From a virus, in the IMG/VR virus record IMGVR_UViG_3300007345_000258, positions 1 to 24,905 of that record: 24,905 bases of DNA. The stretch is one strand, 5' to 3'. Position 1 is the first letter of the stretch. Each line of letters starts with the position of its first letter. The notes beneath the pieces are model-generated. The model saw only the letters and a list, made by a program, of their open reading frames with translations, was not told the origin of the DNA and searched no databases. The translations under genes were made by a program, and so were the position numbers. This document shows positions 36 to 24,664 of the stretch, piece after piece.

Positions 36-626
36 ATGAAATTAAAAAATATTTGGGCTATCACAAGATGGTTATTATTAGGAGTGGCTTTTGGTGTCAT
101 GGCATTTATAGGTATCCTTATCTTTCACATAGTATACCCGATTGAGTGTATATGGGGATGGAAGAAGTACTCATTCGGTTGGTGGTTTGTTAACCGAGAC
201 GAGAAGGATGAGATAAGTAACCTATACGGTGACGAAGGGTGGCGAGAGAGGAATGATATAGTGATAGAGGATATGACTGGATTTATTGGCTGGTTTCAAC
301 GTTCTTATGTTGCTTTTAGATGGATGGCACTTAGAAACCCAACTTGGAACTTTAAGCTGTGGGTGAGACCAAAGAATGGACCTCTATCAGATATAGATAT
401 ATTAATTGATGAAGGTCCAGGAGGTGCATTGACATACAGGAACCATACTTTATTTGGAGAGCAATATGGCTTCTTTACAGTAGGTGGCACTAGGTACTTT
501 AGATACTCTATCTCTAAGCATGTCAAGTTCTTATGGATATGGGAGAGGCACTGGATTGTGCAACTTGGCAGTTCTAGTGAGAGATACATCTACAAAAATA
601 AATGGTCAGATAGACAAATAAGTTAA
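36..626 (+). CDS. N-terminally anchored membrane protein, phage conserved hypothetical
   Basis: A 196-residue protein of unknown function. Residues about 11-34 form one strongly hydrophobic segment (LLLGVAFGVMAFIGILIF), preceded by Lys/Arg residues, so a single membrane anchor with the bulk of the protein after it is likely. The rest is rich in Trp, Tyr and Gly (KYSFGWWF, ALRNPTWNF, IWERHWIVQLG) and looks like a compact beta-rich domain. The DEKDEISNLYGDEGW and ALRNPTWNF motifs resemble a membrane protein often seen in Bacteroidota phages, but I cannot name the family with certainty. It lies upstream of the consensus promoter at 634 and so probably belongs to the preceding transcription unit. 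A role at the host envelope is possible but is inference only. Confidence 0.8.
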   Translation: MKLKNIWAITRWLLLGVAFGVMAFIGILIFHIVYPIECIWGWKKYSFGWWFVNRDEKDEISNLYGDEGWRERNDIVIEDMTGFIGWFQRSYVAFRWMALRNPTWNFKLWVRPKNGPLSDIDILIDEGPGGALTYRNHTLFGEQYGFFTVGGTRYFRYSISKHVKFLWIWERHWIVQLGSSSERYIYKNKWSDRQIS

Positions 627-633
627 CTTTTCC

Positions 634-664
634 TTTGTTATTATTAATATTTATCTTAAATTTG
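634..664 (+). promoter_or_regulatory. Bacteroidota-type promoter (TTTG - 19 bp - TAAATTTG)
   Basis: TTTG at 634-637 and TAAATTTG at 657-664, spaced by 19 bases, match the Bacteroidota housekeeping promoter (-33 TTTG, -7 TAnnTTTG). The site lies in the only gap of this gene block and its -7 element ends 22 bases before the ATG at 687. The sequence from 638 to 665 is identical at 26 of 28 positions to the promoter region at 7985-8012. Confidence 0.75.
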
Positions 665-3338: not shown

Positions 3339-5507
3339 ATGGCAGATGAAACATACATCACTGGTAAGGTTGATGCAGTAAGAAACCCTAGTGGTGACTG
3401 GGTAAATACTCAGGTATTTAGGGAAGCTGGTAACCATTACATGAAGCATAATTATTATGTTGCAGACCCCTGGGGCACACCTGACTGGGTATCTTATTGG
3501 AAAAATGAGAGAACTAAGTCAATGAAAGGTGTTACCATTGGTGGCTCTAGGATTACAGGAGAACATTATAACTACCTCAACTATACACCTATTAAAAAGG
3601 TAGGTGCGATTAGAGGAAACAAAGCAGACAAGATTACAGGGTTTCCTGACTTTTGGGATGGAGACTACAACTACTTCTGGATTAGGCAGATAGCCAGGTA
3701 TGGAGTAATAGACATGCTCCTTGAAGATGAAGAAAAGGAGTTGGTCTTAAAGATGGACGATAAAGCTCAGGCTCTCAAGATGAAAGAATTATTTGAGAGC
3801 TTGAATCTTTTTGTGCAGATTGAGGAAGGTTTTCTAGGTGGAGGATTTAATCTTATTGTAGGTAAGAGTAGACGTAAAGGATATTCCCTAAAGGCTGCTG
3901 CAATTGGCTCTAATGCTTACTTCACTAAACCCAACAAACTTATTATATATGGTGCCCATGATAAAAAATACCTATACCCAAATGGTATTTTTGGAATGAC
4001 CTACAACAACATTAACTTCATCAATGCTAACACTGGTTGGGCTATGCCCTCTGATGTTATTGATAGGTTAGGTTCTGGTCACATTAAGGCATCATACATT
4101 CAATACAAGAATGGAATAAAATTAGAGAAAGGTTTCAAGTCTGAGATTATGGCTTTAACCTTTAAGGACAACCCAGATGCTGCCAGGGGTAAGGATGCTG
4201 AAGAAGTATTCTTTGAAGAATCAGGAGCATTTGGTACACCTGGATTATTGAAAGATTCCTATAAAGCAACAGAAGATTGTGTAATGGCAGGGGCTATCAA
4301 GACAGGTATGATTACAATCTTTGGTACTTCTGGAGATATGGAAGGTGGTACTTATGATTATGCTGACATGTTTGGTAGACCACAAGCCTTTGGTTTACTG
4401 CCATTTAAGAATATATGGGATGAGAATCAAATAGATATGAATGTAGGATTCTTCCACCCAATCAACTGGAACATGGAAGGATTCTATGATAAGCACGGTA
4501 ACTCAGATAAAGAAGGAGCTAAAAATGTAGAGATTAAGATTAGAGAAAATCTTATCAAGCATGGTGCAACCTCAACAGAGATACAGTCTAGAATGCAAGA
4601 GAAACCTCTTGGACCTAGTGAAGCTTTCTCTGCCATATCTGTAAACACATTCCCTGTCCTAGAACTGAAGAGACAATTACAACTAGTAAAAGGTAAAGGT
4701 TGGCAAATGTCAAAAGGTACTCCTGTCAACATGTACTATAAGGATGGCAAAGTAATTGCTGAGCCAATCATGGATGGGACAGCCAAACCAGTTACAAGTT
4801 ATTATAATGTACCCACTGATACAAGAGGGTGTCCAATGATTTATGAACAACCTATTGCAAATCCTCCAGTTGGGTTGTATAAGATTGGTTATGACCCTAT
4901 TAGACAAGATGAAGGAACCTCACTAGCTTCCATCATAGTTTATAAGAGTGCCCACAGAGGTACACAACACTCTGACATAGTTGTGGCTGAATATATAGGC
5001 AGGTTAGAAACTCCATCAGATATTGACAGGATTGCAGAAATGTTTGCAGACCTCTATGGAACTAAAATCATGTACGAGAATGAAGTTACTGGTGTTAAAA
5101 CCTACTTCCAAAGAATTAAAAGATTGCATTTACTTGCAGCTCAACCTGACAGAGTAATTAGTAAGAACATAAAAAACTCTAGAGTTGCTAGGGTATTTGG
5201 TTGTCACATGAATGGACAACTTAAAGATGCAGGAGAGAGATATGTAAAAGAGTGGCTACTTACTGTGTTAGACTATGATGAACATGGTGCAGCAATCAGA
5301 GTGATAGATAAAATTTATTCTATCAGGTTGCTTGAAGAGCTAATCGCATACAACAGAGCAGGGAACTTTGATATGGTTTCTTCACTGTTTATGTGCATGT
5401 TTCAAATACAAGAAGAAGAGCTAGGAAAGGTGTATGATGAGAAGGATAAACATAAAAATGCAAAAAAACTTCTTGAAATGCGTCGAAAAATGTATAAAAA
5501 GCGTTAA
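3339..5507 (+). CDS. terL: Terminase large subunit (ATPase and nuclease)
   Basis: A 722-residue packaging motor protein that pumps DNA through the portal and cuts the concatemer. The ATPase half has GGSRITGEHYNYLNYTPI near the start, a Walker A-like stretch GKSRRKGYS at 175-183, a Walker B motif EEVFFEES at 288-295 with catalytic Glu, and a coupling motif TIFGTSGDMEGG at 326-337. The nuclease half has the RNase H-like acidic residues D519 (KIGYDP), E580 or E582 (MYENE) and D678 (NFDMVSS). Size and motif wording match crAss-like terminases, which use a degenerate Walker A. It directly follows the micro-ORF and precedes the portal gene. A promoter-like TAACTTTG overlaps its stop codon. Confidence 0.95.
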   Translation: MADETYITGKVDAVRNPSGDWVNTQVFREAGNHYMKHNYYVADPWGTPDWVSYWKNERTKSMKGVTIGGSRITGEHYNYLNYTPIKKVGAIRGNKADKITGFPDFWDGDYNYFWIRQIARYGVIDMLLEDEEKELVLKMDDKAQALKMKELFESLNLFVQIEEGFLGGGFNLIVGKSRRKGYSLKAAAIGSNAYFTKPNKLIIYGAHDKKYLYPNGIFGMTYNNINFINANTGWAMPSDVIDRLGSGHIKASYIQYKNGIKLEKGFKSEIMALTFKDNPDAARGKDAEEVFFEESGAFGTPGLLKDSYKATEDCVMAGAIKTGMITIFGTSGDMEGGTYDYADMFGRPQAFGLLPFKNIWDENQIDMNVGFFHPINWNMEGFYDKHGNSDKEGAKNVEIKIRENLIKHGATSTEIQSRMQEKPLGPSEAFSAISVNTFPVLELKRQLQLVKGKGWQMSKGTPVNMYYKDGKVIAEPIMDGTAKPVTSYYNVPTDTRGCPMIYEQPIANPPVGLYKIGYDPIRQDEGTSLASIIVYKSAHRGTQHSDIVVAEYIGRLETPSDIDRIAEMFADLYGTKIMYENEVTGVKTYFQRIKRLHLLAAQPDRVISKNIKNSRVARVFGCHMNGQLKDAGERYVKEWLLTVLDYDEHGAAIRVIDKIYSIRLLEELIAYNRAGNFDMVSSLFMCMFQIQEEELGKVYDEKDKHKNAKKLLEMRRKMYKKR

Positions 5508-5512
5508 CTTTG
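5505..5512 (+). promoter_or_regulatory. Candidate -7 element (TAACTTTG) for the portal gene
   Basis: TAACTTTG matches TAnnTTTG and overlaps the TerL stop codon. Eight bases separate it from the portal ATG at 5521. No good TTTG is seen 17-20 bases upstream, so it is weaker than the site at 634. Transcription would begin at or only a few bases before the start codon. Confidence 0.45.
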
Positions 5513-5520
5513 TAAAAATT

Positions 5521-7944
5521 ATGAATATGAATCAATCAATTAAGAGAGCTGTCAACGAAAGATTAAGCTCAGCAGCCAAGAATGCAGACAAGCAAGCATG
5601 GTATAAAGAAAAAGCCAATACACTTAAAAATGACCACAACTCTCTTAGAGAATCTTATGGTCATGTCTCGGATTACAAGAGAATGATGGTTAACTACAAT
5701 CTCTTCAACAACATTATAGACCTAAAGGATTTTGAATATGTCTGTAAACCATTTGGTTCTGAGCAAGGTGAACTTCCTGCATCTATGGTAAACCGTGATA
5801 TATCCTCAGGTAAGCTGAAAGCTCTGTTTGGTATGGAGATGAAGAGACCAAACTCCTGGAAGACAATTGCTGTTAATCCAGAAGCTACTACTAGAAAAGA
5901 GCAGGAAGCTATGGGCAGATACAGAAACTTTGTTGTATCTGAGATAACTGGTCCAATTAGAAAACAGATTGAGACGAGAATTGCTCAGGAGAATTCTGGC
6001 AAAGAACTCACAGCTGAAGAGCAACAACAAGTTGCAGCAAGGATAGACCAGGAACTTAATTCCCAAACTCCTCTAGAAACAAAGAAATATATGGAGCGTG
6101 AGCACCAAGACCCAGCTGAGGTTATGACACATCAGCTCTTGGAATACATGATTCAGAAGACAGATATCAAAAGAAAATTTAATGAGGCATTCAAACACCT
6201 TAGCTTATCAGCCAAGGAGTGTATGTATGTAGGTATCCTTAATGGAGAGCCTCAGGCATGGAATGTAAACTCATTACGCATACATACTAAAAGGTCAAGT
6301 ATCTCTCCTTTTATAGAAGATGGAGAAAGTATGTCTGTAAAGTATAAAATGACACCATCAGAAATCTTACAACATTTTGGAGATGAATTAACAAATGAAG
6401 AAATAGATAGAATCTACTCTGCTTATATAGATGATAACTCAGGTGAAGACTTATTTGAGTTGGCAGAAAGAGTTGATGAAGATGGTGAGTATAGAGACTA
6501 TGCAAATATTGATGTACACCACTGTTTATGGAAGTCCCTTAGAAAGATGGCATTCTTATACTATACAGGTGCAGATGGGGCAGAAGCTGTTATGATAGTT
6601 GATGAGACTTATAAGCTTAACCCAGATGCTGGTGACATTAGAATAGAATTTGAATGGTTACCTGAAAGTTATCAGACTTGGATAATCCTCGATGATATCT
6701 ACGTTAACATGGAACCAATCCCAGGTCAGTTCAAAGATATTGACGACCTCTATAATTGTAAATTCCCATACTATGGAGTGTACTTAGATGATATGAACTC
6801 AGTTCCTACTTCACCTATGGATAGACTAAAGGTTTATCAGTACTACTATAATATTGTAATGTATCGATTAGAATTACTTCTTGCCTCAGATAAAGGTAAG
6901 AAAGTTATGATGAACATTAATGCTATCCCTGACAGTGCAGGTATAGATATGGAGCAATGGACATACTTCTTTGAGAGTTCACCATTTATGTGGTTTAACC
7001 CAAATGAAGAAGGAACAGGATATAATGATGTAAATACAATGGCTAAGACCATAGATTTATCATTAGCCTCTGACATTGCAAAGTATATTGAATTCGCTGA
7101 ATATCTTAAAAGACAAGCTGGAGCCTCAATAGGTATTCCAGAAAGTGTTGAAGGTCAGGCTGATGCTAATCAAGCTGTGGGTACTAACAGACAGAACCTT
7201 GTACAGACCTCAAATATCTTAGAACCATTCTTTGATATACACGCTACCTTTAAAAGAAATGTATTGGTTGCTCTTATAGAGACAGCCAAGATTGCTTATG
7301 CTGGTAAGAATTCAGTAAAGCTTTCTTATGTATTAGATGATATGTCTATGAAAATGCTAGAGTTAGATGTAGACTTACTACAAGCCTCTAGAATTGGACT
7401 GTTTGTTGCTAATGCTACCAAAGCTACTGAAGCTGTGGATAACATTAAGCAATTGGCTCATGCAGCTATGCAGAACCAAAAAGCAGAGCTATCAGACATT
7501 ATGGCTGTCCTTAGAACTGAAGGAGTAGTAGAAGCTGAAGAAACTCTTAAAGTGGCTGAGAAGTCACGTAAAGCTGACGAAGCTGCTATTGAACAGAACA
7601 GAGGCAAGCAGGCTCAAGAACTTGAGAAAATGAGACAAGATGGCTTAGATAAGCTACACAAGAATGATAAAGAGCTTGTTGTTCTTAAGGAAGGTGAAAG
7701 ACGTAAAACTGTTATTGCTCAATCAGCTATTACAGGAATGTCCTTCAATCCAGATGCTGATGCAGATAATGATGGAGTAAATGACTTCCTTGAAGTTGCC
7801 AGAGATGGAGTGAAAGCTGACATTGAAAGAAGCAAAGCACAGCTAGACCGTGAAAAATTTGAGCAATCTAAGGTAGAACACAAGGATAAAATGAAGCTTG
7901 AAGGCAAAAAAATTAGCTCAGGAAACAAAAATCCAAAGAAATAG
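5521..7944 (+). CDS. Portal protein
   Basis: An 807-residue protein at the position and of the size expected for the dodecameric portal of crAss-like phages, the channel through which TerL loads DNA. I chose ATG 5521 (MNMNQSIKRAVNERL); a longer frame from 5434 would overlap TerL by 74 bases and adds a basic, out-of-character segment. A second ATG at 5527 is also possible. The middle contains acidic, aromatic portal-like segments (PMDRLKVYQYYYNIVMYRLE, EYLKRQAGASIGIPESVEGQ, NQAVGTNRQNLVQTSNILEP). The C-terminal ~120 residues are a long charged helix or coiled coil. Within it D747-A-D-N-D751-G-V-N-D-F-L-E758 is a textbook EF-hand or dockerin-type calcium loop. Identification rests on context, length and helical layout. 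Confidence 0.9.
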   Translation: MNMNQSIKRAVNERLSSAAKNADKQAWYKEKANTLKNDHNSLRESYGHVSDYKRMMVNYNLFNNIIDLKDFEYVCKPFGSEQGELPASMVNRDISSGKLKALFGMEMKRPNSWKTIAVNPEATTRKEQEAMGRYRNFVVSEITGPIRKQIETRIAQENSGKELTAEEQQQVAARIDQELNSQTPLETKKYMEREHQDPAEVMTHQLLEYMIQKTDIKRKFNEAFKHLSLSAKECMYVGILNGEPQAWNVNSLRIHTKRSSISPFIEDGESMSVKYKMTPSEILQHFGDELTNEEIDRIYSAYIDDNSGEDLFELAERVDEDGEYRDYANIDVHHCLWKSLRKMAFLYYTGADGAEAVMIVDETYKLNPDAGDIRIEFEWLPESYQTWIILDDIYVNMEPIPGQFKDIDDLYNCKFPYYGVYLDDMNSVPTSPMDRLKVYQYYYNIVMYRLELLLASDKGKKVMMNINAIPDSAGIDMEQWTYFFESSPFMWFNPNEEGTGYNDVNTMAKTIDLSLASDIAKYIEFAEYLKRQAGASIGIPESVEGQADANQAVGTNRQNLVQTSNILEPFFDIHATFKRNVLVALIETAKIAYAGKNSVKLSYVLDDMSMKMLELDVDLLQASRIGLFVANATKATEAVDNIKQLAHAAMQNQKAELSDIMAVLRTEGVVEAEETLKVAEKSRKADEAAIEQNRGKQAQELEKMRQDGLDKLHKNDKELVVLKEGERRKTVIAQSAITGMSFNPDADADNDGVNDFLEVARDGVKADIERSKAQLDREKFEQSKVEHKDKMKLEGKKISSGNKNPKK

Positions 7945-7984
7945 CTATTACACACTAATAAAAAATAATTAAGATTTATGTTAA

Positions 7985-8011
7985 TTATTATTAATATTTA
8001 TTTTATATTTG
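7985..8011 (+). promoter_or_regulatory. Promoter for scaffold/capsid genes (TATATTTG)
   Basis: TATATTTG at 8004-8011 matches the Bacteroidota -7 element. The 28 bases from 7985 match the promoter spacer and -7 region at 638-665 at 26 positions, although TTTG at -33 is replaced by TTAA. It lies in a 71-base gap after the portal gene. The element ends only four bases before the ATG at 8016, predicting a transcript with little or no 5' leader. Confidence 0.65.
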
Positions 8012-8015
8012 CAGT

Positions 8016-9155
8016 ATGCTAAAAACAAATAATGATGAATTTGCTGGTTTATTCGATTCTGATGTAGCAGATGTTGACTTCTTTGCAGAAGAAGCAGCAC
8101 CTACTGAAGGAGAAGAAGAAGCAGTAGATGATAAGAACCCTAAGGTTGAAGACAGTAAGCCTAAGGAAGAGCCCAAACCCGATGAAGACCTATTCAAAAA
8201 AGAAGAGGTAGTTATTACAGAAGAAGAAGAAGAGGAAGAAGAAGAAGAAGCAGGTGAACCAGAAGGTGAACCAAGTTCTGCTTTATCCACTTTAAAGAAT
8301 CTCAAAGAAAAAGGTTATATCGATTATGAGCTAGAGGAAGGGGAAACCCTTACTGAACAAAAAGCTGAAGAGCTTATTGAGGATTCTTTTGACAATATGT
8401 TTGAAGAAAGAATTGAAGAGTTGTTTGCAAATGTACCAGAAGTGGTCAAGCAAATGAACAAGTACGTATTACAAGGTGGTGACATCAATGCATTCTTAGA
8501 CCAAGTGGCTACACAAAAATCCACAGGTATCTCAGTAGGCATGGACTTAACTGATGAGGCTAACCAAGAGTTAGTAGTCCGTAATGGATTAAAAGATGAA
8601 GGGTATGACGATGAATACATTGCTGCCAACATTGAGTTTCTTAAAGACTCAAAAAGGATGGAGAGCGTTGCTGAGAAACAGTACAGTAAGTGGACAAAAG
8701 AATATAAGGTTAAGCAAGCTGAGATTCTTGAATCTACAAAGAATGCTGAAAAAGAAGCAAAAGCTCAACGTCGAGAATTAAAAAATAAAGTGGTATCATT
8801 CCTTGATGAAACAGAAACTGTTGAAGGATTTGCTGTCACTAGACAAGACAAAAAAGAGCTACCTACTTATATGTCTGATAGAACTATTCAATTAGAGAAT
8901 GGAAATCAGGTAACAGGTATGCAAAAAGATTTAATGAGAGTTTTGAATAGCCCTACGGGTTCTATCCAAATAGCAAAGTTATTAAAAAATGCTAACGCAG
9001 ATGGAGTTCTAAGTTTTGAAGAAATCAAGCAACATACAGAATCAAAGGTAACAGAGAAGGTTAGGGATAATGTTAGGCGAAATAAAAAGAGTGTTATATC
9101 AGGAGCAGGGGGAGTTAGAAAATCTAAAAAACCTTTAGCATCCTATTTTAATTAA
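8016..9155 (+). CDS. Acidic scaffold-like head protein
   Basis: A 379-residue protein between portal and major capsid protein, the usual place of the scaffolding protein. The first ~90 residues are very acidic and disordered-looking, with ten consecutive Glu at residues 69-78 encoded by GAA/GAG codons (8220-8249). The middle is helical and charged (EELIEDSFDNMFEERIEELF, QAEILESTKNAEKEAKAQRR), and the C-terminus is basic (RRNKKSVISG, RKSKKPLASYFN), as in scaffolds whose basic tail binds the capsid protein. No protease signature is visible. It could alternatively be an internal head protein; position and charge pattern favour scaffold. It is the first gene behind the promoter at 8004. Confidence 0.75.
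   Translation: MLKTNNDEFAGLFDSDVADVDFFAEEAAPTEGEEEAVDDKNPKVEDSKPKEEPKPDEDLFKKEEVVITEEEEEEEEEEAGEPEGEPSSALSTLKNLKEKGYIDYELEEGETLTEQKAEELIEDSFDNMFEERIEELFANVPEVVKQMNKYVLQGGDINAFLDQVATQKSTGISVGMDLTDEANQELVVRNGLKDEGYDDEYIAANIEFLKDSKRMESVAEKQYSKWTKEYKVKQAEILESTKNAEKEAKAQRRELKNKVVSFLDETETVEGFAVTRQDKKELPTYMSDRTIQLENGNQVTGMQKDLMRVLNSPTGSIQIAKLLKNANADGVLSFEEIKQHTESKVTEKVRDNVRRNKKSVISGAGGVRKSKKPLASYFN
8220..8249 (+). repeat. GAA triplet run encoding ten Glu
   Basis: Ten consecutive GAA or GAG codons (one GAG) form a homopurine run inside the scaffold-like gene. Unit changes would keep the reading frame, so length variation between related phages would be tolerated in this acidic linker. Confidence 0.85.
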
Positions 9156-9172
9156 AACTAAATATTTAATTT

Positions 9173-10654
9173 ATGGCAACTAAAATTAACAAATTGCAGG
9201 TAAGACAAGCCAAGTTTAATTCCACTAGGATGACTGACTTAAACCACTGGAGTAACCAGTTGGCTATCAAACCTACTGTCTTTGAGGCACCAACAAGAGC
9301 AATCTTTGCATCAAAAACAAATAGCCTAAATCTTTCCTCTGGTAATGTATTGGAAGGTATCTTCGGGCTAGGAAAAACGAAGTATATTGATGACCTTAAC
9401 TGGTCATGGAAAATGAAAGTTAAAGGATTCCGTCCTATGACTATCATTGAGAACAGAACAGCTGGAAACACTCCAGGTAAATATCGTGGAGACATCGAAG
9501 TATTAGTAGATGTTGACCTATTTGCTATTGGTGAGTCAATTGGACCTGGTTCCTCTGACAAGTCTCAAGTGGTAACTGTAACTAATAAGACTAAAGAGGG
9601 AGCTCGTGGATTCGTGTATACCTTAAAGACTTATACTGAAGGTGCAGAGCATTTTATCAATCCTAAGTACCTTAAGCCAGGAACTAAATGGACTCGTATG
9701 TTTACCATGCGTGGTGAAGCTGCAGAAAGTGGGTCTCACACTGAGAACTACACTAATGTAGAGTACAAAAACTCATTGGTTAAACTTCGTAAGGAGTACA
9801 AAGTAACTGATTTCGCTGCACAAGCAGTGGTTGAAATTGCTTTCCAAGATGATGAGGGTGGAGTACACAAATCATGGATGGACAAACAAGAAGCTGATTA
9901 CTACATGGCAATGAATAAAGAAATGGCAACATTTGCTCTTTATTCTCGTTTAGGTGACCAACCTCTTATCGACCCAGATTCAGGATACCCAATCAATCCA
10001 GGTGCTGGTATGGAGCAACAAATTGGTTTTGGTGGAAATGTAGAGCGTTATACTACAATGTCTGCTGAGCTAATTGAAGCTTTCTTTGATAGAATCGTAT
10101 ACTCTAGAATAAATCCAGGAGATTTAGGAGAAGTTATGGGATTATCAGGTCATTATGGAATGAAAGAGTATGCTAAAGCATTAGATACTTGGACAGGTGG
10201 TAAAGCTATTGTTCGTGAATCTTCTACCTTTATTAAAGGTACTGAAGGTATGAGTAATAACTCACTAAGAACTGGTTATCAGTTTGTAACTTATGACCTA
10301 CCAACAGGTGGTTCATTCAAGTTAGTTCATAATGCTATGAATGATGATAAGTCTATTCACCGTGATATTGACCCATTAACTGGTGTTCCATTACAATCAC
10401 AGCGAATTACTATCCTTGATGTAACAGGTGGTAATGGTGATAGCTTAGCTAAAGATAACATTTGCTTGGTTCGTAAGAATAAAGTATATGGTAGCACACG
10501 AATTTTAGGACGAGTTGGACCAGGTGGTGTAAGTACTGGAGACAGAGCTACACACTCAGGAGATTACTACGAAGTACATATCTCAGATAGTATCGGAGTA
10601 CAAATTACTGACTCAACTGTAACTGGGGAACTAGTTAAATCAGTGAATGAATAA
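9173..10654 (+). CDS. Major capsid protein
   Basis: A 493-residue protein directly after the scaffold-like gene, of the length expected for crAss-like major capsid proteins (HK97 fold, about 490-500 residues). The N-terminal segment LQVRQAKFNSTRMTDLNHWS is likely the N-arm; DLNWSWKMKVKGFRPMTIIE and the later RMFTMRGEAAESGSHTENYT are typical of capsid proteins of this group. The sequence is free of long low-complexity runs and has no cysteines in its first half, fitting a shell protein. Codon use shifts slightly towards cgt for Arg compared with the tail genes, as often seen for highly expressed genes. The ATG follows an A/T-rich leader; no Shine-Dalgarno is seen, which is normal for Bacteroidota. 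Confidence 0.9.
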   Translation: MATKINKLQVRQAKFNSTRMTDLNHWSNQLAIKPTVFEAPTRAIFASKTNSLNLSSGNVLEGIFGLGKTKYIDDLNWSWKMKVKGFRPMTIIENRTAGNTPGKYRGDIEVLVDVDLFAIGESIGPGSSDKSQVVTVTNKTKEGARGFVYTLKTYTEGAEHFINPKYLKPGTKWTRMFTMRGEAAESGSHTENYTNVEYKNSLVKLRKEYKVTDFAAQAVVEIAFQDDEGGVHKSWMDKQEADYYMAMNKEMATFALYSRLGDQPLIDPDSGYPINPGAGMEQQIGFGGNVERYTTMSAELIEAFFDRIVYSRINPGDLGEVMGLSGHYGMKEYAKALDTWTGGKAIVRESSTFIKGTEGMSNNSLRTGYQFVTYDLPTGGSFKLVHNAMNDDKSIHRDIDPLTGVPLQSQRITILDVTGGNGDSLAKDNICLVRKNKVYGSTRILGRVGPGGVSTGDRATHSGDYYEVHISDSIGVQITDSTVTGELVKSVNE

Positions 10655-16299: not shown

Positions 16300-16452
16300 T
16301 AAATAAATAAATAAATAAATATTATGGAACAAAAAAATTTAAACATAGACCGATTTACGGATAAAGAAAAAGTAAAAGTAGAGTTAAACTTTAGAGACTT
16401 ATTTAGAAGAGTGAAAGGTCTTGAAGATGCACCAGATGGTGGAGGTGGTGAA
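16291..16452 (+). repeat. Fibre leader and docking-segment repeat, copy A
   Basis: This stretch spans the end of one fibre gene, a TAAA tandem repeat, and the first ~43 codons of the next. It matches 16950-17107 almost base for base. Differences are one TAAA unit and about five substitutions (for example GGAAC/GGCAC after the ATG and ACGG/ACTG). Identity includes non-coding sequence, so it reflects recent duplication or gene conversion. Confidence 0.9.
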
Positions 16453-16926
16453 TTACCTTATACTAGTTATAATGCAATAATCACTGCTGGAGGTTATGTT
16501 GAGGGTACTAGTGGTTTATTAATAGTTGGTAAAACATATTATATTGATTTTCTTGAAGTGGGGGATGATTTTGCTAATGTAGGGTATGTATCTGCAGGAA
16601 CAGCTTTTGTTGCTACAGGAACGACTCCAACAAATTGGACTAATGGAACTTATGTTCTTAATCTTACAGATTCAACTTTTGACCTTGTAGAATTATCTAA
16701 TAATACAGGAGAAATCATTACTGCTGCAGTAACCTACAATGAAGGGCAATTTATTAATACTACTGGCTCAATATTTTTAGAAGATAAAACACAGATATTT
16801 ATTACAATTATGGGGGTTAGTAATAATACAGGAACTGCAGCATATAGAAATGATAATGATTCTATATTATTTAGAAGTTTAGTAGCTGGAGTAAAATATT
16901 CACTTGAAGTAAGGGTTTATCCATAA
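16324..16926 (+). CDS. Short fibre protein with duplicated docking segment
   Basis: A 200-residue protein. Residues 1-36 (MEQKNLNIDRFTDKEKVKVE then LNFRDLFRRVKGLEDAP) are nearly identical to the start of the next fibre gene and are followed by a DGGGGE flexible linker. Residues about 60-110 hold a phage-fibre module (LIVGKTYYIDFLEVGDDFAN, then GTAFVATGTTPTNWTNGTYV). The rest is a beta-rich tip (FITIMGVSNNTGTAAYRNDN, then LEVRVYP). Its length is about a third of the neighbouring fibres. The leader before it is a TAAA tandem repeat. It probably trimerises on the same docking site as its paralogues and offers a different tip; this is inference. Confidence 0.8.
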   Translation: MEQKNLNIDRFTDKEKVKVELNFRDLFRRVKGLEDAPDGGGGELPYTSYNAIITAGGYVEGTSGLLIVGKTYYIDFLEVGDDFANVGYVSAGTAFVATGTTPTNWTNGTYVLNLTDSTFDLVELSNNTGEIITAAVTYNEGQFINTTGSIFLEDKTQIFITIMGVSNNTGTAAYRNDNDSILFRSLVAGVKYSLEVRVYP

Positions 16927-16949: not shown

Positions 16950-17107
16950 ACATTTTAATAAATAAATAAATAAAAATTATGGCACAAAAAAATTTAAACA
17001 TAGACCGATTTACTGATAAAGAAAAAGTAAAAGTAGAGTTAAACTTTAGAGACTTATTTAGAAGATTGAAAGGTCTTGAAGATGCACCAGATGGTGGAGG
17101 TGGAGAA
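16950..17107 (+). repeat. Fibre leader and docking-segment repeat, copy B
   Basis: This is the second copy of the segment at 16291-16452, again spanning a TAAA tandem repeat, a start codon and the docking coding region down to the poly-Gly linker. Just upstream, 16936-16965 reads as a nine-codon relic ATG frame that ends in the repeat, consistent with a joint left by duplication. Confidence 0.9.
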
Positions 17108-17950
17108 CCTGAAGGCTACACTACTTGGGGAACTACAATTGAGGGAGAAGAGTTATATGTATCAATAGGGGATTATAATGGAGCTGTTAATGGCACTACT
17201 ATTGAAATTGATGATGCTGGAAGTTCAGTAGATATATATGCTGATAATATAAATCTAAATGGTTCTGCTTTTATGAGAAAACCTGATTATTTTCAAGTAA
17301 GAGATTCTCCTGGAAGTGGATATAATCAACTTCATTGGAATAAATTAGAATTAAGTAGTGGATTTGGAGACCCTACTATATATACAACTAGTGGTTTTGA
17401 TTTATCAGGGAGATTAAATTTTAGTAAAGACAGTATTGTGTGTTCTCCTCAAATAATTCCTAGCACAGATGCTATGGGAACTTTTTTATTTCCAAATTTA
17501 GATGCTATAGCAACTGAAAAAACATTTGTTATGTCAGTAAATGGTGTAGATGCTGGAATTGATGGAAACGTAATAACAGGGTCTCAACAAGTTAAAGTAT
17601 CATTATCTGCTGCTCAAATAAAGGCATTAGGAACTACTCCAATAGATTTAATACCAGCACCAGGAGCAGGGAAGTATATTCGAGTAACAGGAATGGACTA
17701 TGACTATAATTACACTGCAGCCCCATTTGACGCTAACAGCTTTACTGTAGACTTTGATGGAGCAGGGGATAACATAATCTTTCCTGATTTGAATTTAGCT
17801 ACAACAGCTGATGACTGGGCTTTTGCTAGTCCAATTAATGAGCATAAGAATTTAGAGAATACTAAAGTAGTGGTCAATGGCACGGATTCAGTAGCAACTG
17901 GAGATGGCGTACTAACACTAAATGTAACTTATATGATAATGACTAGATAA
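16979..17950 (+). CDS. Tail fibre protein with duplicated docking segment
   Basis: A 323-residue fibre. Residues 1-36 are the duplicated docking segment, with a single conspicuous difference from the preceding fibre (FRRL for FRRV), then DGGGGEPEG. Residues 48-195 are a beta-rich shaft with short repeats (GTTIEIDDAGSSVDIYADNI, DLSGRLNFSKDS), ending in MSVNGVDAGIDG. The C-terminal domain (about 203-323) begins QQVKVSLSAAQIKALGTTPI and PAPGAGKYIRVTG, a common phage fibre-end domain. A divergent version seems to close the 625-residue fibre at 14422. It probably binds a host surface glycan or protein; the ligand cannot be read from sequence. Confidence 0.85.
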   Translation: MAQKNLNIDRFTDKEKVKVELNFRDLFRRLKGLEDAPDGGGGEPEGYTTWGTTIEGEELYVSIGDYNGAVNGTTIEIDDAGSSVDIYADNINLNGSAFMRKPDYFQVRDSPGSGYNQLHWNKLELSSGFGDPTIYTTSGFDLSGRLNFSKDSIVCSPQIIPSTDAMGTFLFPNLDAIATEKTFVMSVNGVDAGIDGNVITGSQQVKVSLSAAQIKALGTTPIDLIPAPGAGKYIRVTGMDYDYNYTAAPFDANSFTVDFDGAGDNIIFPDLNLATTADDWAFASPINEHKNLENTKVVVNGTDSVATGDGVLTLNVTYMIMTR

Positions 17951-18007: not shown

Positions 18008-19528
18008 ATGATGACATTAAGTCCAAAAGAAAGTATAAAGAAGAGTTTACAAAAGACAAGAGAAAATTTTATAGACCTTTTCAGAAGAGTCACAGCTCTT
18101 GAATCAGGAGGAGGAGGAGGAGGAGGAGCCTCAGTTATTGAAGTAACAAAAGCAGAGATAGATGTACTAATTGCCAATGGAGAATTAGTTGTTGGCTCTG
18201 CATATAAAATAAGTGGCGTAGACACTGCTTTGTATGGTGGAACTACAATTATGCTTCAAGCAGTTGAAACAGATGAGCTAAGCTTAGATGGAGTAGGAAT
18301 TTTTTACAATCCTAAATATGACGATACAGTAAGTGGATTCAATGTTTTTGATGATGCAGGAGTTTATATAGTAGGGGATAGAGTGCATTGGGGAGGTAAA
18401 ACTTGGGTAAACCTAAATGGGAATACTGGTATTCCACCTGATGTAAATTATGAATACGAACTTAGTGCAGATTGGACTGCACTTCCATTTGATGCAGTAG
18501 AATACAATGTAGCTTATGATGCTATTAAATACGATTATGAAAATGACTTAATTGTAGAACGAAATGAAAACAACTCAAATATAGTATCTTGTGATAGATT
18601 GACTGTTCAGCTTTATGGGAAAAGTCCTATCAGAGCCTTCATGTGGGGTAATAACCCAACTATCTTTGAAGACCTTTACATATATACTTATTATGGTAGA
18701 GCATATGGTTCATATACTCCTACTTTTTCTGCTGATATTTTTGGTATAGCGAATAATAGGATTATAAATTCTTTAAATGAAAATATTAATTTTAAAGGGC
18801 TTGCTTCTTATAATATAACAATGATTGAAAATAGTCAACAGGTTAGGTGTATATTTAAGACAGGGAGTTATCAAGTCAATATATCACTCTCAGGTAAAAG
18901 CCAACAGTTTGATTTAGTATTCGAGAATGGTTCATACCAAGAAGATATTATTTTAACGGACAATACTATTCAAAAGGATGTTAAAGCAGACAACAGTTCA
19001 CAAACACATTTAAGAATGAATAAAAGTGTTCAACAGAGCTTAACTCTTATAAATGCTGCACAAAGCTTTTGTTTATTTGATGATGGTTCACAATTTAATA
19101 CTAGTTTTACTGATTGTACCCAAGCTAATTGTCAATTTCTTTATGGAGGAGTACAACAGCAATGTGCATTTTCAGTTGGTAGCCATCAAAGGCATTGTAA
19201 ATTTATAGGTGAGAATGCAGAACAGAGAAGATTAACTTCTGCATTAGGGCATATACAAGAGAGAATTGTGTTTGAAGATTATTATAGTGAAAGATTAGCT
19301 TTGAATCCAACTGCAACAGAGGCAGATTTAATTTATAGTCCACGTATAATAACCAAACCATTCTTAGTAGCTGACTTACCTGATGGTATTACACCAAATC
19401 TCAGATATGTTGGAATGAAATGTTTTGTGACAGATGCAACTGCACCCACTTATGGGGCAACCATTGCTGGTGCTGGTGCTGTGTTTTCTCCTGTGATTTG
19501 GGATGGAAGTAATTGGATAGTGGGATAA
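18008..19528 (+). CDS. Fibre/spike protein with glutamine-ladder repeats
   Basis: A 506-residue protein. Residues 1-32 are a docking segment related to the two preceding fibres (ENFIDLFRRVTALES), followed by seven Gly (34-40). Residues 44-100 contain a fibre module (IANGELVVGSAYKISGVD). Residues about 276-420 are some 14 tandem units of 10-12 residues with a Gln in nearly the same place: Q278, 289, 300, 311, 322, 332, 342, 352, 362, 372, 383, 394, 406 and 417. Between the Gln residues the pattern alternates hydrophobic and polar residues, which points to a beta-solenoid with a Gln ladder. The C-terminus (VFSPVIWDGSNWIVG) is a typical fibre end. The start could also be the second Met. It may be a spike with a depolymerase or binding face, but no catalytic triad is recognisable. 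Confidence 0.85.
   Translation: MMTLSPKESIKKSLQKTRENFIDLFRRVTALESGGGGGGGASVIEVTKAEIDVLIANGELVVGSAYKISGVDTALYGGTTIMLQAVETDELSLDGVGIFYNPKYDDTVSGFNVFDDAGVYIVGDRVHWGGKTWVNLNGNTGIPPDVNYEYELSADWTALPFDAVEYNVAYDAIKYDYENDLIVERNENNSNIVSCDRLTVQLYGKSPIRAFMWGNNPTIFEDLYIYTYYGRAYGSYTPTFSADIFGIANNRIINSLNENINFKGLASYNITMIENSQQVRCIFKTGSYQVNISLSGKSQQFDLVFENGSYQEDIILTDNTIQKDVKADNSSQTHLRMNKSVQQSLTLINAAQSFCLFDDGSQFNTSFTDCTQANCQFLYGGVQQQCAFSVGSHQRHCKFIGENAEQRRLTSALGHIQERIVFEDYYSERLALNPTATEADLIYSPRIITKPFLVADLPDGITPNLRYVGMKCFVTDATAPTYGATIAGAGAVFSPVIWDGSNWIVG
18107..18127 (+). repeat. GGA triplet run encoding the poly-Gly linker
   Basis: Seven GGA codons in a row encode the Gly linker between docking segment and fibre body. 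Unit gain or loss would keep the frame and change linker length. Confidence 0.85.
18833..19267 (+). repeat. Coding region of the 10-12-residue Gln repeats
   Basis: This part of the fibre gene encodes about 14 degenerate repeats with spacing 11, 11, 11, 11, 10, 10, 10, 10, 10, 11, 11, 12 and 11 residues between the conserved glutamines. Consensus is roughly (S/T/A/V)-x-Q-x-x-hydrophobic-x-(F/L)-x-x-(G/N/S). The repeats are clear in protein but diverged in DNA, so they are old rather than a recent tandem expansion. Confidence 0.8.
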
Positions 19529-19529
19529 T

Positions 19530-20147
19530 ATGAAACTAAGAAATAAACTTTTTAGGAGAAAATCCTTTGCTTTATCTCGACAACCTATTTTCATACATAT
19601 ACCTAAAACTGGTGGAACAGCTTTAGAACATTGCTTTAAGCAAGCTGGATTAAGAATAAATAATTTATTACATACCCCAGCAAGATTTATTAAAGAACGT
19701 TTTCCTGATAATTATAAAGACCAATTTACTTTCACTATTGTCAGGAATCCTTATGCAAGATTTTTAAGTGCTTGCAGATATAATGGAGTAGATGATGAAA
19801 ACATTGAGGAGTTATCCTCCCAGATAAAGGGAGGAAATGTAGATTGGTGCAGTAATTTTAGTATACATCATTATGAACACTTTTTCACTCAGAAACATTT
19901 TATAACAGACTTTGATAATGAAACTATTATAGTAGATTACATAGGAAAGTTTGAAGACCTACAAAATGTAATAGATATTCTAAAAGAGAATGATGCTGAC
20001 ATCTCTAAGTATTTTGAGGTCAAAGCAAGTAAGTCCTCAGATTGGGAAAATATCTTAACACAAGAAACAAAAGACAATATCCAAAGTATTTATAGTGAAG
20101 ACTTTACATTATTTAATAACTTTTATAAGAAATATATTACAAATTAA
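19530..20147 (+). CDS. PAPS-dependent sulfotransferase family protein
   Basis: A 205-residue enzyme that should transfer sulfate from PAPS to a hydroxyl group, most likely on a carbohydrate. The 5'-phosphosulfate loop is FIHIPKTGGTAL (I24-P-K-T-G-G-T30), and the 3'-phosphate motif is FTIVRNPYARFLSACRY (R72, S80). Near the C-terminal third VDYIGKFEDLQNVIDIL is the usual third landmark of the family-2 type. H49 in LLHTPARF is a possible catalytic base. No membrane anchor is visible, unlike Golgi enzymes, so it is cytoplasmic or virion-packaged. It starts one base after the Gln-ladder fibre's stop, inside the fibre run. Likely targets are host surface polysaccharide or phage fibre glycans; neither is shown by sequence. 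Confidence 0.85.
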   Translation: MKLRNKLFRRKSFALSRQPIFIHIPKTGGTALEHCFKQAGLRINNLLHTPARFIKERFPDNYKDQFTFTIVRNPYARFLSACRYNGVDDENIEELSSQIKGGNVDWCSNFSIHHYEHFFTQKHFITDFDNETIIVDYIGKFEDLQNVIDILKENDADISKYFEVKASKSSDWENILTQETKDNIQSIYSEDFTLFNNFYKKYITN

Positions 20148-20161: not shown

Positions 20162-20169
20162 TATCTTTG
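20162..20169 (+). promoter_or_regulatory. Candidate promoter -7 element (TATCTTTG) for the holin gene
   Basis: TATCTTTG matches TAnnTTTG in the 54-base gap before the holin-like gene, whose ATG lies 32 bases further on. No clear TTTG is found at -33. A perfect 10-base palindrome, TGCCTAGGCA at 20168-20177, overlaps the end of the element, and an AT inverted repeat lies just upstream, so the promoter may be controlled. Confidence 0.55.
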
Positions 20170-20201: not shown

Positions 20202-20768
20202 ATGAAGCAATATAACTTTTTTAACTTTTTTACTAATTTTAATTGGAAAAAAGCTTTAATTTTTCTTCCTGTACCATTATTAGCCCACCTTGAATCTGTG
20301 ATATACCCCTTAATTACTTTATTCATAGTCATCAACTTAGACTTACTAACAGGACTAGTATCTTATTTTTACAAGCTTCGTAAAGAAATAAGCAGACCAC
20401 TTATCTTAAATGATTATAGGTATGGTGTAGTATCAGGTGGCATAAGACAAACAATAATAAAATCATACCAATATGGTATGGCATTCATAGTTTTATTCAT
20501 AATAGAGATGATGGCATTTAAAGGCTCATACTCTTTTGAAGTACCATTAATTGGTATTCAAGCAAACCTAAGTCAATTCCTTTTGTGGGCTCTAGTTATG
20601 ATAGAGGTCAAGAGTATAGATGAAAACTTAAAAGGGGTTAGTGGTAAATCATTATTTGAGTCCATAGGACAAACTTTTCAATTTTTTAGAGACTTCGTCA
20701 ATAAAATCACTGGGAAAACACAAGACACCAGAGATTGGGAGGAATACCCTGATGACGAGGCTCGTTAA
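20202..20768 (+). CDS. Holin-like membrane protein
   Basis: A 188-residue membrane protein. Hydrophobic segments lie at about 18-52 (probably two passes around LAHLES), 90-106 and 122-136, followed by a charged cytoplasmic tail ending DWEEYPDDEAR. The order NLDLLTGLVSYFYKLRKEIS, then SGGIRQTIIKSYQYGMAF, then VMIEVKSIDENLKGVS follows the toxin-secretion/phage-lysis holin family (LC3/holin 4 type), with its 'D-TG', 'R-K' and 'E--SI-EN' landmarks. It would open the inner membrane at lysis. It has its own candidate promoter, which fits a need for timed expression. No endolysin is adjacent; the nearest candidate is the transpeptidase-like gene at 1913. Confidence 0.75.
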   Translation: MKQYNFFNFFTNFNWKKALIFLPVPLLAHLESVIYPLITLFIVINLDLLTGLVSYFYKLRKEISRPLILNDYRYGVVSGGIRQTIIKSYQYGMAFIVLFIIEMMAFKGSYSFEVPLIGIQANLSQFLLWALVMIEVKSIDENLKGVSGKSLFESIGQTFQFFRDFVNKITGKTQDTRDWEEYPDDEAR

Positions 20769-20782
20769 TTTCAAACAACTAT

Positions 20783-22102
20783 ATGATTAAAAAACAGATT
20801 ATTAATCACCTTCTAGCAAATGGTGGTAAACTGACATCAGAAGAAACTTGGCTATCAATAGCCAAAAGATATGGTATTGAACCAGCAGACCAAGAGAGGG
20901 CTGCAACAGATAAGAAATACAAAAACAAGACAATAGCAAGATTAGCTCAGAGATACTGGCAACAGTATTGCAAACAAGAGAACAAACTAAGCCTTGTCAG
21001 TCAAACCTTCAAAGGTGATAAATTAGCCTTTGAGACATTTAAAAAACAACAAAAACAAGCAGTCCCAATTGACTTTGATGACTTTGAGATAGAAAAACTC
21101 ACAACTAATCCCAATGGAGTTCCATGGATTAAGATGAAAAAGAAGGAGAACTTCTACTCAGAGGAACATCTTGCAAATCTAAAAGAGGTACTGACAAAAG
21201 AATTAGAACCTTTCAACTATAACCCAACTATATTTACAAATGGCAAAGCTCATTTTGTATATGGTGCTGACAAGCATATTGGGGCTCTCACTAAACTAGA
21301 TTCTATTTACAAGAACATATATGACAAAGATGTCATGAGAGAGAGGATAGTCTACGCTACTATCAGAAATATACAAGAAAGTGTAGCATTACATGGAGCA
21401 TTTGATTCTTTGTTCATTATGGACTTTGGAGATGCTCTTGATGGCTTTAATGCAAAAACTACTGGTGGTTTAAGAGGAACATCTTCTCACACACTACCTC
21501 AGCAGTTAAACAATAGGGAACAGCATGACTTCTATGTAGAGTTACATAGGGAATTGTTTGACATCATTATGGCTAATGATTTTGCAAGAGATGTTTATTT
21601 CATTGCAACAAGTAACTCAAATCATGGTGGAGACTTTGAATACGGAGCTATGAAGCACCTTGAGACCTACTTAGAGGTAAAGTATCCAGACATCAAAACT
21701 TATGTCTCCTACAACGCTTACAATCATTTTATATGGGAAGGACATGCTCTTGTTTTTGGACATGGAAAAGATGATGAAGATATGAAGAATGGACTACCTT
21801 TAGTCATTAATGATAAAGTAGCTTCTGTCTTATCTGATTACATCAGAGTGAACAAGTTAGATGACTACAATGTAAGTGTTATCAGTGGTGACTTACACCA
21901 ATCAGCTGATGGATATGCAAAGAATTTCAGATACAAAAAAGTACTGTCACAATATGGTAGTTCTAAATGGATGCACACCAACTTTGGTTCAGGGCAACCA
22001 GGATTATCTTCTGAAGTTTTTGTAGCTAATACAAGAAAAATATACAAGGATGAAGACTTCTTTGAAATAGAAGAAGAGTCAAACACAGGAATAACATTTT
22101 AA
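20783..22102 (+). CDS. Calcineurin-like metallophosphoesterase
   Basis: A 439-residue enzyme. The C-terminal two-thirds carry the five blocks of the calcineurin-like fold: ADKHIGAL (D163, H165), DFGDALDG (G216, D217), SNSNHGGD (N280, H281), FGHGKDDED (H327) and SGDLHQS (G369, D370, H372). Together these bind two metal ions, and substrates in the family range from DNA ends and cyclic nucleotides to phosphoproteins. Residues 1-70 look like a helical domain (ETWLSIAKRYGIEPADQERA, IARLAQRYWQQYC) that may bind DNA. It lies between holin and a short fibre gene. An SbcD-like nuclease role is possible, but no SbcC-like partner is in the window. Substrate unknown. Confidence 0.85.
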   Translation: MIKKQIINHLLANGGKLTSEETWLSIAKRYGIEPADQERAATDKKYKNKTIARLAQRYWQQYCKQENKLSLVSQTFKGDKLAFETFKKQQKQAVPIDFDDFEIEKLTTNPNGVPWIKMKKKENFYSEEHLANLKEVLTKELEPFNYNPTIFTNGKAHFVYGADKHIGALTKLDSIYKNIYDKDVMRERIVYATIRNIQESVALHGAFDSLFIMDFGDALDGFNAKTTGGLRGTSSHTLPQQLNNREQHDFYVELHRELFDIIMANDFARDVYFIATSNSNHGGDFEYGAMKHLETYLEVKYPDIKTYVSYNAYNHFIWEGHALVFGHGKDDEDMKNGLPLVINDKVASVLSDYIRVNKLDDYNVSVISGDLHQSADGYAKNFRYKKVLSQYGSSKWMHTNFGSGQPGLSSEVFVANTRKIYKDEDFFEIEEESNTGITF

Positions 22103-22639: not shown

Positions 22640-22647
22640 TATCTTTG
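22640..22647 (+). promoter_or_regulatory. Candidate -7 element (TATCTTTG) abutting the nuclease start
   Basis: TATCTTTG matches TAnnTTTG and ends four bases before the ATG at 22652, the same spacing as at 8004-8016. The upstream -33 region has no clear TTTG. A transcript from here would begin at or next to the start codon. Confidence 0.5.
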
Positions 22648-23371: not shown

Positions 23372-24664
23372 ATGAAATTAGATTGGTATATTACTAGGTT
23401 ACCTTGGCTCTGGTGGAAATTAAAAGGGATTATTGAATCTCCAACAATCTTATCACCAACCGAGAACAGGATTATAGTCACTCAGGCTAACAAAGACACT
23501 ATCTTAGGAGGAGTAATTGATTCTACTAAGGAATACTTTTTGGATGGGATTATTGATATGGGTTCAACCCAAATAACAGTTCCTCCAACTGGAATGACTA
23601 TATCAGGTCTGTCTTTTGACATTAGTGGTCTTACATCATCTGAAGACAATTATACGATGTTTATATCTGAGTCTATTGGTATAGGCAGTGGCAACTTGTT
23701 AGGTGCTGATTACTTTATATCAGTTTTAGGAGCAGGTTCTAAAGTGTACGAGTTATATGATGCTACGGGGTTTAATGCTTTTGAGTTCTCAAGAATCAAC
23801 TACATAGATTGTACTGATTTAGGAGACATATATGACTACAGACAAGGTTTAGAAGATGGTACAGGGAGATTTGGAGGTTCTCCTTCATTGACGCTACATG
23901 GCTTATGGAGAGGCGGTTATAGAATAACTACAAGTATTGTTAGAAGTTTAGCAGGAACAATGACTAAGCCATTATTCAAAGAAGGAACCTTATTCCAAAT
24001 GAATAGTAGATTCTTAACAGATATTAACTGTGACTTACCTACTTTAGCACCTTTCTGTGATTTTCAGACTATAAACTTTATAAACCCTTCTACAGTGCAA
24101 GTTAAAGGAGCTATAATAAGCAGAGACGGGGGATTTAATGCTGACGATACAAATATATTTCCAAATCTATTAGCAAGTGATTTACCTTGTGATTGGGATA
24201 ACAATATAGGTATTCCTAATACTTTCGTGGGTGGTGCTTTAAATAATGAAACAGAGGTTCAAACAGTAATAGTAACTCAAGGGGAAGCAGTAGACTTAAA
24301 CGGAACTTTTACAGCTGTAGACTTACAACACTTTGATAGTCCTGCTAATGGTAGACTGAGACATATAGGTATTAACCCAAGAGAATTTACAGTTAATTGG
24401 GATTTCTTAATAGACGGAAAAGACAATGATAATTATGAATTGTTTTTAATAAAGATAGATACCCAGGCTAATGTGACTGTAGAATATGCTCAAGTAAGAA
24501 CAGTTAACAACTTTCAAGGAGGTAGAGACGTAGGTATTTGGTCAGGTCAAACTTCTGTAATATTAAATCAAAACGACCTTATATTTTGGCAAATAGCAAA
24601 CTTGTTAGATAATGATAACTGTACTCTAGAGCAAGATTCAACTTGGTCTGTAAAAGAAAGATAA
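23372..24664 (+). CDS. Large fibre or spike-like virion protein
   Basis: A 430-residue protein that starts three bases after the nuclease. The N-terminus is Trp-rich (LDWYITRLPWLWWKLKGI) and unlike the docking segments of the other fibres, so it may attach at another place on the virion. Residues about 45-290 have the look of a right-handed beta-helix or beta-rich shaft (FLDGIIDMGSTQITVPPTGM, TISGLSFDISGLT, TINFINPSTVQVKGAIIS). The C-terminal ~130 residues suggest a C1q/TNF-like jelly roll (LRHIGINPREFTVNWDFLI then YELFLIKID), closing with DSTWSVKER, as in several phage fibre heads. No catalytic motif is evident. It directly precedes the neck protein gene. Confidence 0.75.
   Translation: MKLDWYITRLPWLWWKLKGIIESPTILSPTENRIIVTQANKDTILGGVIDSTKEYFLDGIIDMGSTQITVPPTGMTISGLSFDISGLTSSEDNYTMFISESIGIGSGNLLGADYFISVLGAGSKVYELYDATGFNAFEFSRINYIDCTDLGDIYDYRQGLEDGTGRFGGSPSLTLHGLWRGGYRITTSIVRSLAGTMTKPLFKEGTLFQMNSRFLTDINCDLPTLAPFCDFQTINFINPSTVQVKGAIISRDGGFNADDTNIFPNLLASDLPCDWDNNIGIPNTFVGGALNNETEVQTVIVTQGEAVDLNGTFTAVDLQHFDSPANGRLRHIGINPREFTVNWDFLIDGKDNDNYELFLIKIDTQANVTVEYAQVRTVNNFQGGRDVGIWSGQTSVILNQNDLIFWQIANLLDNDNCTLEQDSTWSVKER

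Follow-up and report, generated by a model that had tools for sequence, protein, structure and literature searches.

Genes at the locus

The window, the whole 24.9-kb stretch of viral DNA analysed here, encodes a crassvirus capsid protein (Crass_capsid PF23898, E 2.2e-77) and a large terminase subunit (phrog_6681, E 6e-172) with 58% identity to that of Flavobacterium phage Fpv3 and about 32% to those of Crassvirales. By its sequence the window comes from a crassvirus-like phage, a relative of the crAss-like viruses of Bacteroidota, and covers only part of its genome. The phages Fpv3 and Fpv1 (Fipvunavirus; L002 / NC_031904) resemble this window in terminase (58%) and capsid (35%), yet their records carry no Crassvirales placement.

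Table 1. Features around the sulfotransferase gene of the window, and cargo found at the corresponding slot of related phages
Feature	Coordinates	Strand	Remarks
Fibre-like paralogue	16324..16926	+	Shared N-terminal anchor
Fibre-like paralogue	16979..17950	+	Shared N-terminal anchor
Last fibre-like gene	18008..19528	+	506 aa; same N-terminal anchor; stops 1 bp before sulfotransferase
PAPS-dependent sulfotransferase, Sulfotransfer_2 (PF03567)	19530..20147	+	205 aa; ATG start
Sulfotransferase landmarks			PSB loop HIPKTGGT; candidate catalytic His48; 3'-phosphate site VRNPYARFLS; KFEDL
Bacteroidota-type -7 promoter box (consensus TAnnTTTG)	20162..20169	+	TATCTTTG; between sulfotransferase and next gene
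Conserved hydrophobic, possibly holin-like protein	20202..20768	+	188 aa; right-hand boundary of cargo slot
Conserved nuclease-like protein	20783..22102	+	phrog_22398; weak phrog_704 DNA repair exonuclease
Slot cargo of L034: BD-FAE esterase-family protein	L034:8427-9374		44.5 bits, cut-off 26.8
Slot cargo of L035: DUF6734 protein	L035:8813-9628
Slot cargo of L173: DUF6734 protein	L173:3001-3819
Slot cargo of L038: protein weakly like window-start gene 36-626			23% identity

The sulfotransferase gene follows three tandem fibre-like genes (Table 1). Their products have in common the N-terminal anchor NF(R/I)DLFRR(V/L)xxLE followed by a Gly-rich linker, and their C-terminal parts are unrelated; such divergence behind a shared anchor is what would be expected of alternative receptor-binding tips. 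The tip of the third resembles those of the last fibres of the relatives L031 and L042, and one base after the stop codon of this gene comes the sulfotransferase ATG. The N-terminus of the enzyme, NKLFRR, resembles the RDLFRR of the fibre anchor, which may be chance. On the other side, a 54-bp gap leads to the hydrophobic protein gene, which found no family match in Pfam or PHROGs; the nuclease-like gene and then a PD-(D/E)XK exonuclease are the conserved genes that come next, and the hydrophobic and nuclease-like genes served as our synteny anchors. Holin- or spanin-like genes are present in the corresponding region of some relatives. The original prediction had spoken of a fibre/lysis block; the fibre half of that description stands, with three anchor-sharing genes directly upstream, and the lysis half holds only in part, through the holin- or spanin-like genes of relatives, the window's own candidate being without a family.

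Farther downstream, 23372-24664 encodes a phrog_16509 protein that is 47-50% identical to proteins of the Pseudoalteromonas phages HS1, HS5, H105/1 and H103, with a counterpart in L043 (60%) and in none of the other crass-like relatives. This distribution points to the transfer of what is probably a fibre gene between phages whose hosts belong to different phyla.

An intact, predicted PAPS-dependent sulfotransferase

That a sulfotransferase is encoded at 19530-20147, on the forward strand, was borne out by database comparison. The 205-aa product matched Pfam Sulfotransfer_2 with 36.9 bits (E 5.8e-9), against a curated cut-off of 22 bits, and the PHROGs family phrog_3347, 'Galactose-3-O-sulfotransferase', with E 1.2e-16. 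Both matches are far above chance; the 'galactose-3-O' of the second is a family-name transfer and not evidence for the acceptor. NCBIfam matches were noise below cut-off, and a DltD match in the Pfam scan was rejected because it fell below its own cut-off.

The two PAPS motifs and the later KFEDL landmark that had been read from the sequence are all present, as IHIPKTGGT (K26, G29), VRNPYARFLS (R72, N73, P74, S80) and GKFEDL (E142). An alignment with 54 phage homologues, every one of which matches PF03567, shows R72, P74 and S80 to be invariant, and F21, H23, P25, G29, H48, F68, N73 and E142 to be conserved in at least 90% of them. In the alignment only, His48 pairs with the TH(L) histidine of SULT7A1, the catalytic base of SULTs. 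Polysaccharide sulfotransferases have been defined by a PSB lysine, a PB-helix serine, a catalytic base and sheet architecture (PMC11625862), and the window protein has all of these features: the lysine and glycine of the PSB loop are K26 and G29 of HIPKTGGT, the arginine and helix serine of the 3'-phosphate site lie in VRNPYARFLS, and the catalytic base, for which a histidine or glutamate is expected, is probably H48, by its position in the alignment. Judged by its sequence, the protein is an intact enzyme of a known family. No signal peptide is evident in the sequence, and PAPS is cytosolic.

A single-sequence search of viral contigs found no close homologues; 50,697 phage records yielded one partial match (35%) and bacterial genomes one match (28%). 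The phmmer search against PDB sequences found nothing, and solved structures were reached by profile and fold comparison only.

An AlphaFold2 model built from the 54-homologue alignment (pLDDT 84.2) is predicted to have a PAPS-binding alpha/beta sulfotransferase fold, closest to those of heparan sulfate 6-O-sulfotransferase (HS6ST) and heparan sulfate 2-O-sulfotransferase (HS2ST). HS6ST ranked first in VIA-align (Z 12.8, rmsd 3.4, 178 residues), followed by HS2ST (Z 11.2 and 10.9); cytosolic SULTs came lower, at Z about 9, and tyrosylprotein sulfotransferase scored Z 8.6, below the polysaccharide enzymes. Foldseek matched sulfotransferases in PDB with weak E-values and, at E <= 0.001, 23 viral proteins, of which almost every one carries a sulfotransferase annotation.

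Transcription

The box TAnnTTTG occurs on the coding strand of four intergenic gaps of the window (657-664, 8004-8011, 20162-20169 and 22640-22647), where 0.36 occurrences are expected by shuffling; none of 2000 shuffles reached four. A similar box lies 12-65 bases upstream of the counterpart of the hydrophobic protein gene in five relatives (L031, L034, L038, L030 and L042). A sigma-70 promoter scan of the sequence stayed at chance level. The four boxes provide a ready map of putative transcription units in the window. Because the sulfotransferase gene begins 1 bp behind the fibre stop codon and a box precedes the next gene, we read it as the last gene of the fibre transcript; it most likely ends the structural/fibre transcript and hence would be transcribed late.

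Cargo at the same slot in related phages

We found no PF03567 match in about 60 related or crassviral records (batches of 25, 15, 6 and 14), many of which are fragments that stop short of the slot; the batch of 15 left out three known non-relatives that did match PF03567. The original prediction had looked to related phages for the same gene at the same position, and it is absent from every related record searched, which points to a lineage-specific acquisition. In the best-matched relative, L031, the tip of the last fibre matches that of 18008-19528 with 38% identity across 63 residues. The gene for this fibre is followed directly, after a 110-bp gap, by the homologue of 20202-20768; by sequence, L031 has a near-empty version of the slot. 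Four other relatives hold cargo there (Table 1), and nothing recognisable as cargo was found at the slot of L042, L039 or L041. One slot-region protein weakly matched DUF7338 in a joint scan; 'DUF7338-like' as a name for this cargo is a guess. We dropped the idea that DUF6734 is a glycosyltransferase: it has a DxD-like 'HIDNDF' motif, but its model reached only pLDDT 34.8, and on plasmids it does not lie beside glycan genes.

Since cargo varies or is missing among the relatives, the slot appears to be a place for optional genes, and this comparison shows where crassvirus-like phages place them. On the sequences compared, the sulfotransferase is accessory cargo in one crassvirus-like lineage. 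Its G+C content of 28.8% is the lowest among the window genes (comparison figure 35.2%), and in the sulfotransferase tree it sits on a long branch (2.71) without a sure sister, which together suggest horizontal acquisition; its codon use is typical of the phage. ATP-sulfurylase, as a means of supplying PAPS, was not found in 11 relatives.

Two outcomes had been named at the outset as counting against the prediction: loss of the PAPS-binding residues in homologues, and a recent random host-gene capture absent from all relatives. The gene is indeed absent from every related record searched, but the PAPS-binding residues are kept. Likewise, capture by a single lineage agrees with what we see, but the position of the gene is not random: it lies where the fibre transcript most likely ends, a place that holds other cargo in relatives.

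Homologues in other viruses and plasmids

Sulfotransferases had been thought unusual in phage late regions. This view does not survive comparison: one profile scan found relatives of the gene in at least 313 viral contigs, PHROGs holds a family for them, and published work lists sulfotransferases among phage genes without an assigned function (PMC10580990, PMC8290583), their role in phage genomes being described as unclear (PMC10580990). In the literature searched, we found no paper treating crAss-like phages and sulfotransferases together.

The 115 genes that we compared beside viral homologues belonged most often to Sulfotransfer_2 itself (17), methyltransferases and glycosyltransferases. 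The homologue of jumbo phage LR756500 lies inside a run of glycosyltransferase genes, and in a Sulfitobacter plasmid the homologue has an oligosaccharide flippase gene on one side and glycosyltransferase genes on the other. Two homologues have fibre-like neighbours. In the unrelated phage L049, a strong BLAST match with 32% identity to the window enzyme, the Sulfotransfer_2 gene lies in the region 3958-10064, inside a tandem array of six or more fibre-like paralogues of the MADVTI type, which have Collar and Peptidase_S74 domains; in a Phaeobacter plasmid, the gene immediately before the homologue encodes a tail-spike-like product (DUF2793 plus an autoproteolytic Peptidase_G2 domain). We looked for enrichment of viral Sulfotransfer_2 genes beside fibres and did not find it, with a clear fibre-paralogue array in one of 84 loci (L049); other large neighbours were rejected as fibres, being polymerase, helicase, tail sheath, tape measure, portal or glycosyltransferase. 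Fibre adjacency recurs twice, which is too rare for enrichment.

Discussion

Our proposal starts from what is supported directly: family membership, the predicted fold, motifs without losses, confinement to one lineage, the place in the slot and the promoter box. What makes the gene informative is where it stands, probably last on the fibre transcript and in a slot whose cargo differs between relatives. As a single copy linked to that transcript, it leaves two main candidates for the acceptor, the receptor glycan and the fibres. What it does, on which acceptor, when and to what effect we infer as follows. One crassvirus-like lineage would have gained horizontally, as cargo, a cytosolic PAPS-dependent carbohydrate O-sulfotransferase. 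Transcribed late, as the final gene of the structural/fibre transcript, it would use host PAPS as sulfate donor and act in the cytosol on the lipid-linked precursor of a glycan destined for the host surface (O-antigen, capsule or exopolysaccharide). The sulfated glycan would be a changed receptor for the fibres, so that debris and neighbouring infected cells would no longer trap progeny or admit rivals.

We give this late editing of the host surface slightly less than an even chance of being right. By analogy with the glycosyltransferase and flippase neighbours of the viral and plasmid homologues, a glycan is most likely the acceptor, and clusters of glycan genes in phages have been interpreted as probably modifying the surface against competing phages (PMC7824862). 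The window gene differs from most viral homologues in having no glycosyltransferase or glycan cluster with it in the 25-kb fragment. Receptor editing also has to contend with the point that a lytic phage gains only if the precursors turn over before lysis, and fibre adjacency fits modification of the fibres equally well. Both uses put forward in the original prediction, sulfation of surface glycans and sulfation of fibres, are plausible.

Modification of the virion is the main alternative: the enzyme would sulfate the fibres, on a glycan or on tyrosine of the neighbouring fibre proteins, and so change their charge and binding. We consider this rather unlikely, even with a fibre gene 1 bp away on what is probably the same transcript and with the L049 array and the Phaeobacter tail-spike neighbour as parallels. 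The majority of viral homologues have no fibre gene next to them, and chance could account for the two or three of about 80 that do; no glycosyltransferase that might serve the fibres is seen in the fragment, and the predicted fold is of the polysaccharide type, with the tyrosylprotein enzyme scoring lower.

Sulfation of a small molecule or nucleotide (a DNA-modification intermediate, a lipid or a defence signal) strikes us as improbable. The predicted fold is nearer to polysaccharide enzymes than to SULTs, although it is SULT-type folds that act on small molecules, and glycan enzymes are common neighbours of the homologues, although some viral ones lie near DNA primase, DNA polymerase or QueD genes. 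Nucleotide or protein modification has been suggested (PMC10829341); no DNA-modification genes are seen beside the window gene. Least probable of all is a recent, possibly neutral passenger, captured horizontally and without selected function in this phage, which would account for the absence from all related records searched, the low G+C, the long branch and the single known copy. Against it, the gene is full-length, has lost none of its catalytic motifs and follows the codon usage of the phage, and the slot repeatedly holds intact cargo in relatives.

Beyond receptor editing by this one enzyme, the end of the fibre transcript could be an exchange slot for surface-editing enzymes, with matched pairs of fibre and editor swapped as cassettes. 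We offer this as a doubtful extension. If it were true, slot enzymes would be co-expressed with the fibres and would remove or mask the receptor that those fibres use, the examples being the sulfotransferase of the window, the BD-FAE esterase of L034 and the DUF6734 proteins of L035 and L173. The sulfotransferase and its fibre in any case form a testable two-gene system for a recurrent, unexplained type of phage gene.

Comparison with known systems

With the PF03567 family (HS2ST, HNK-1/chondroitin and other carbohydrate sulfotransferases) the window protein has in common the PSB Lys/Gly loop, the R..P.....S site, the histidine and the predicted fold (Z 11-13 to HS2ST/HS6ST); it differs in its length of about 205 aa, which is little more than the catalytic core, and in an identity of 12-15%. 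The phage sulfotransferases of phrog_3347, placed by PHROGs in its moron/AMG class, and those of cyanophages, pelagic phages and jumbo phages belong to the same family and are alike in size and accessory distribution, but their identity to the window protein is about a third at most among those found, and most of them lie in glycosyltransferase/methyltransferase clusters, whereas the window gene stands alone behind a fibre gene. With the O-antigen/capsule clusters of jumbo cyanophages and with O-antigen conversion by prophages, our reading shares the idea that a phage enzyme alters host surface polysaccharide; here the chemistry would be sulfation, by a single gene in a late, fibre-linked position.
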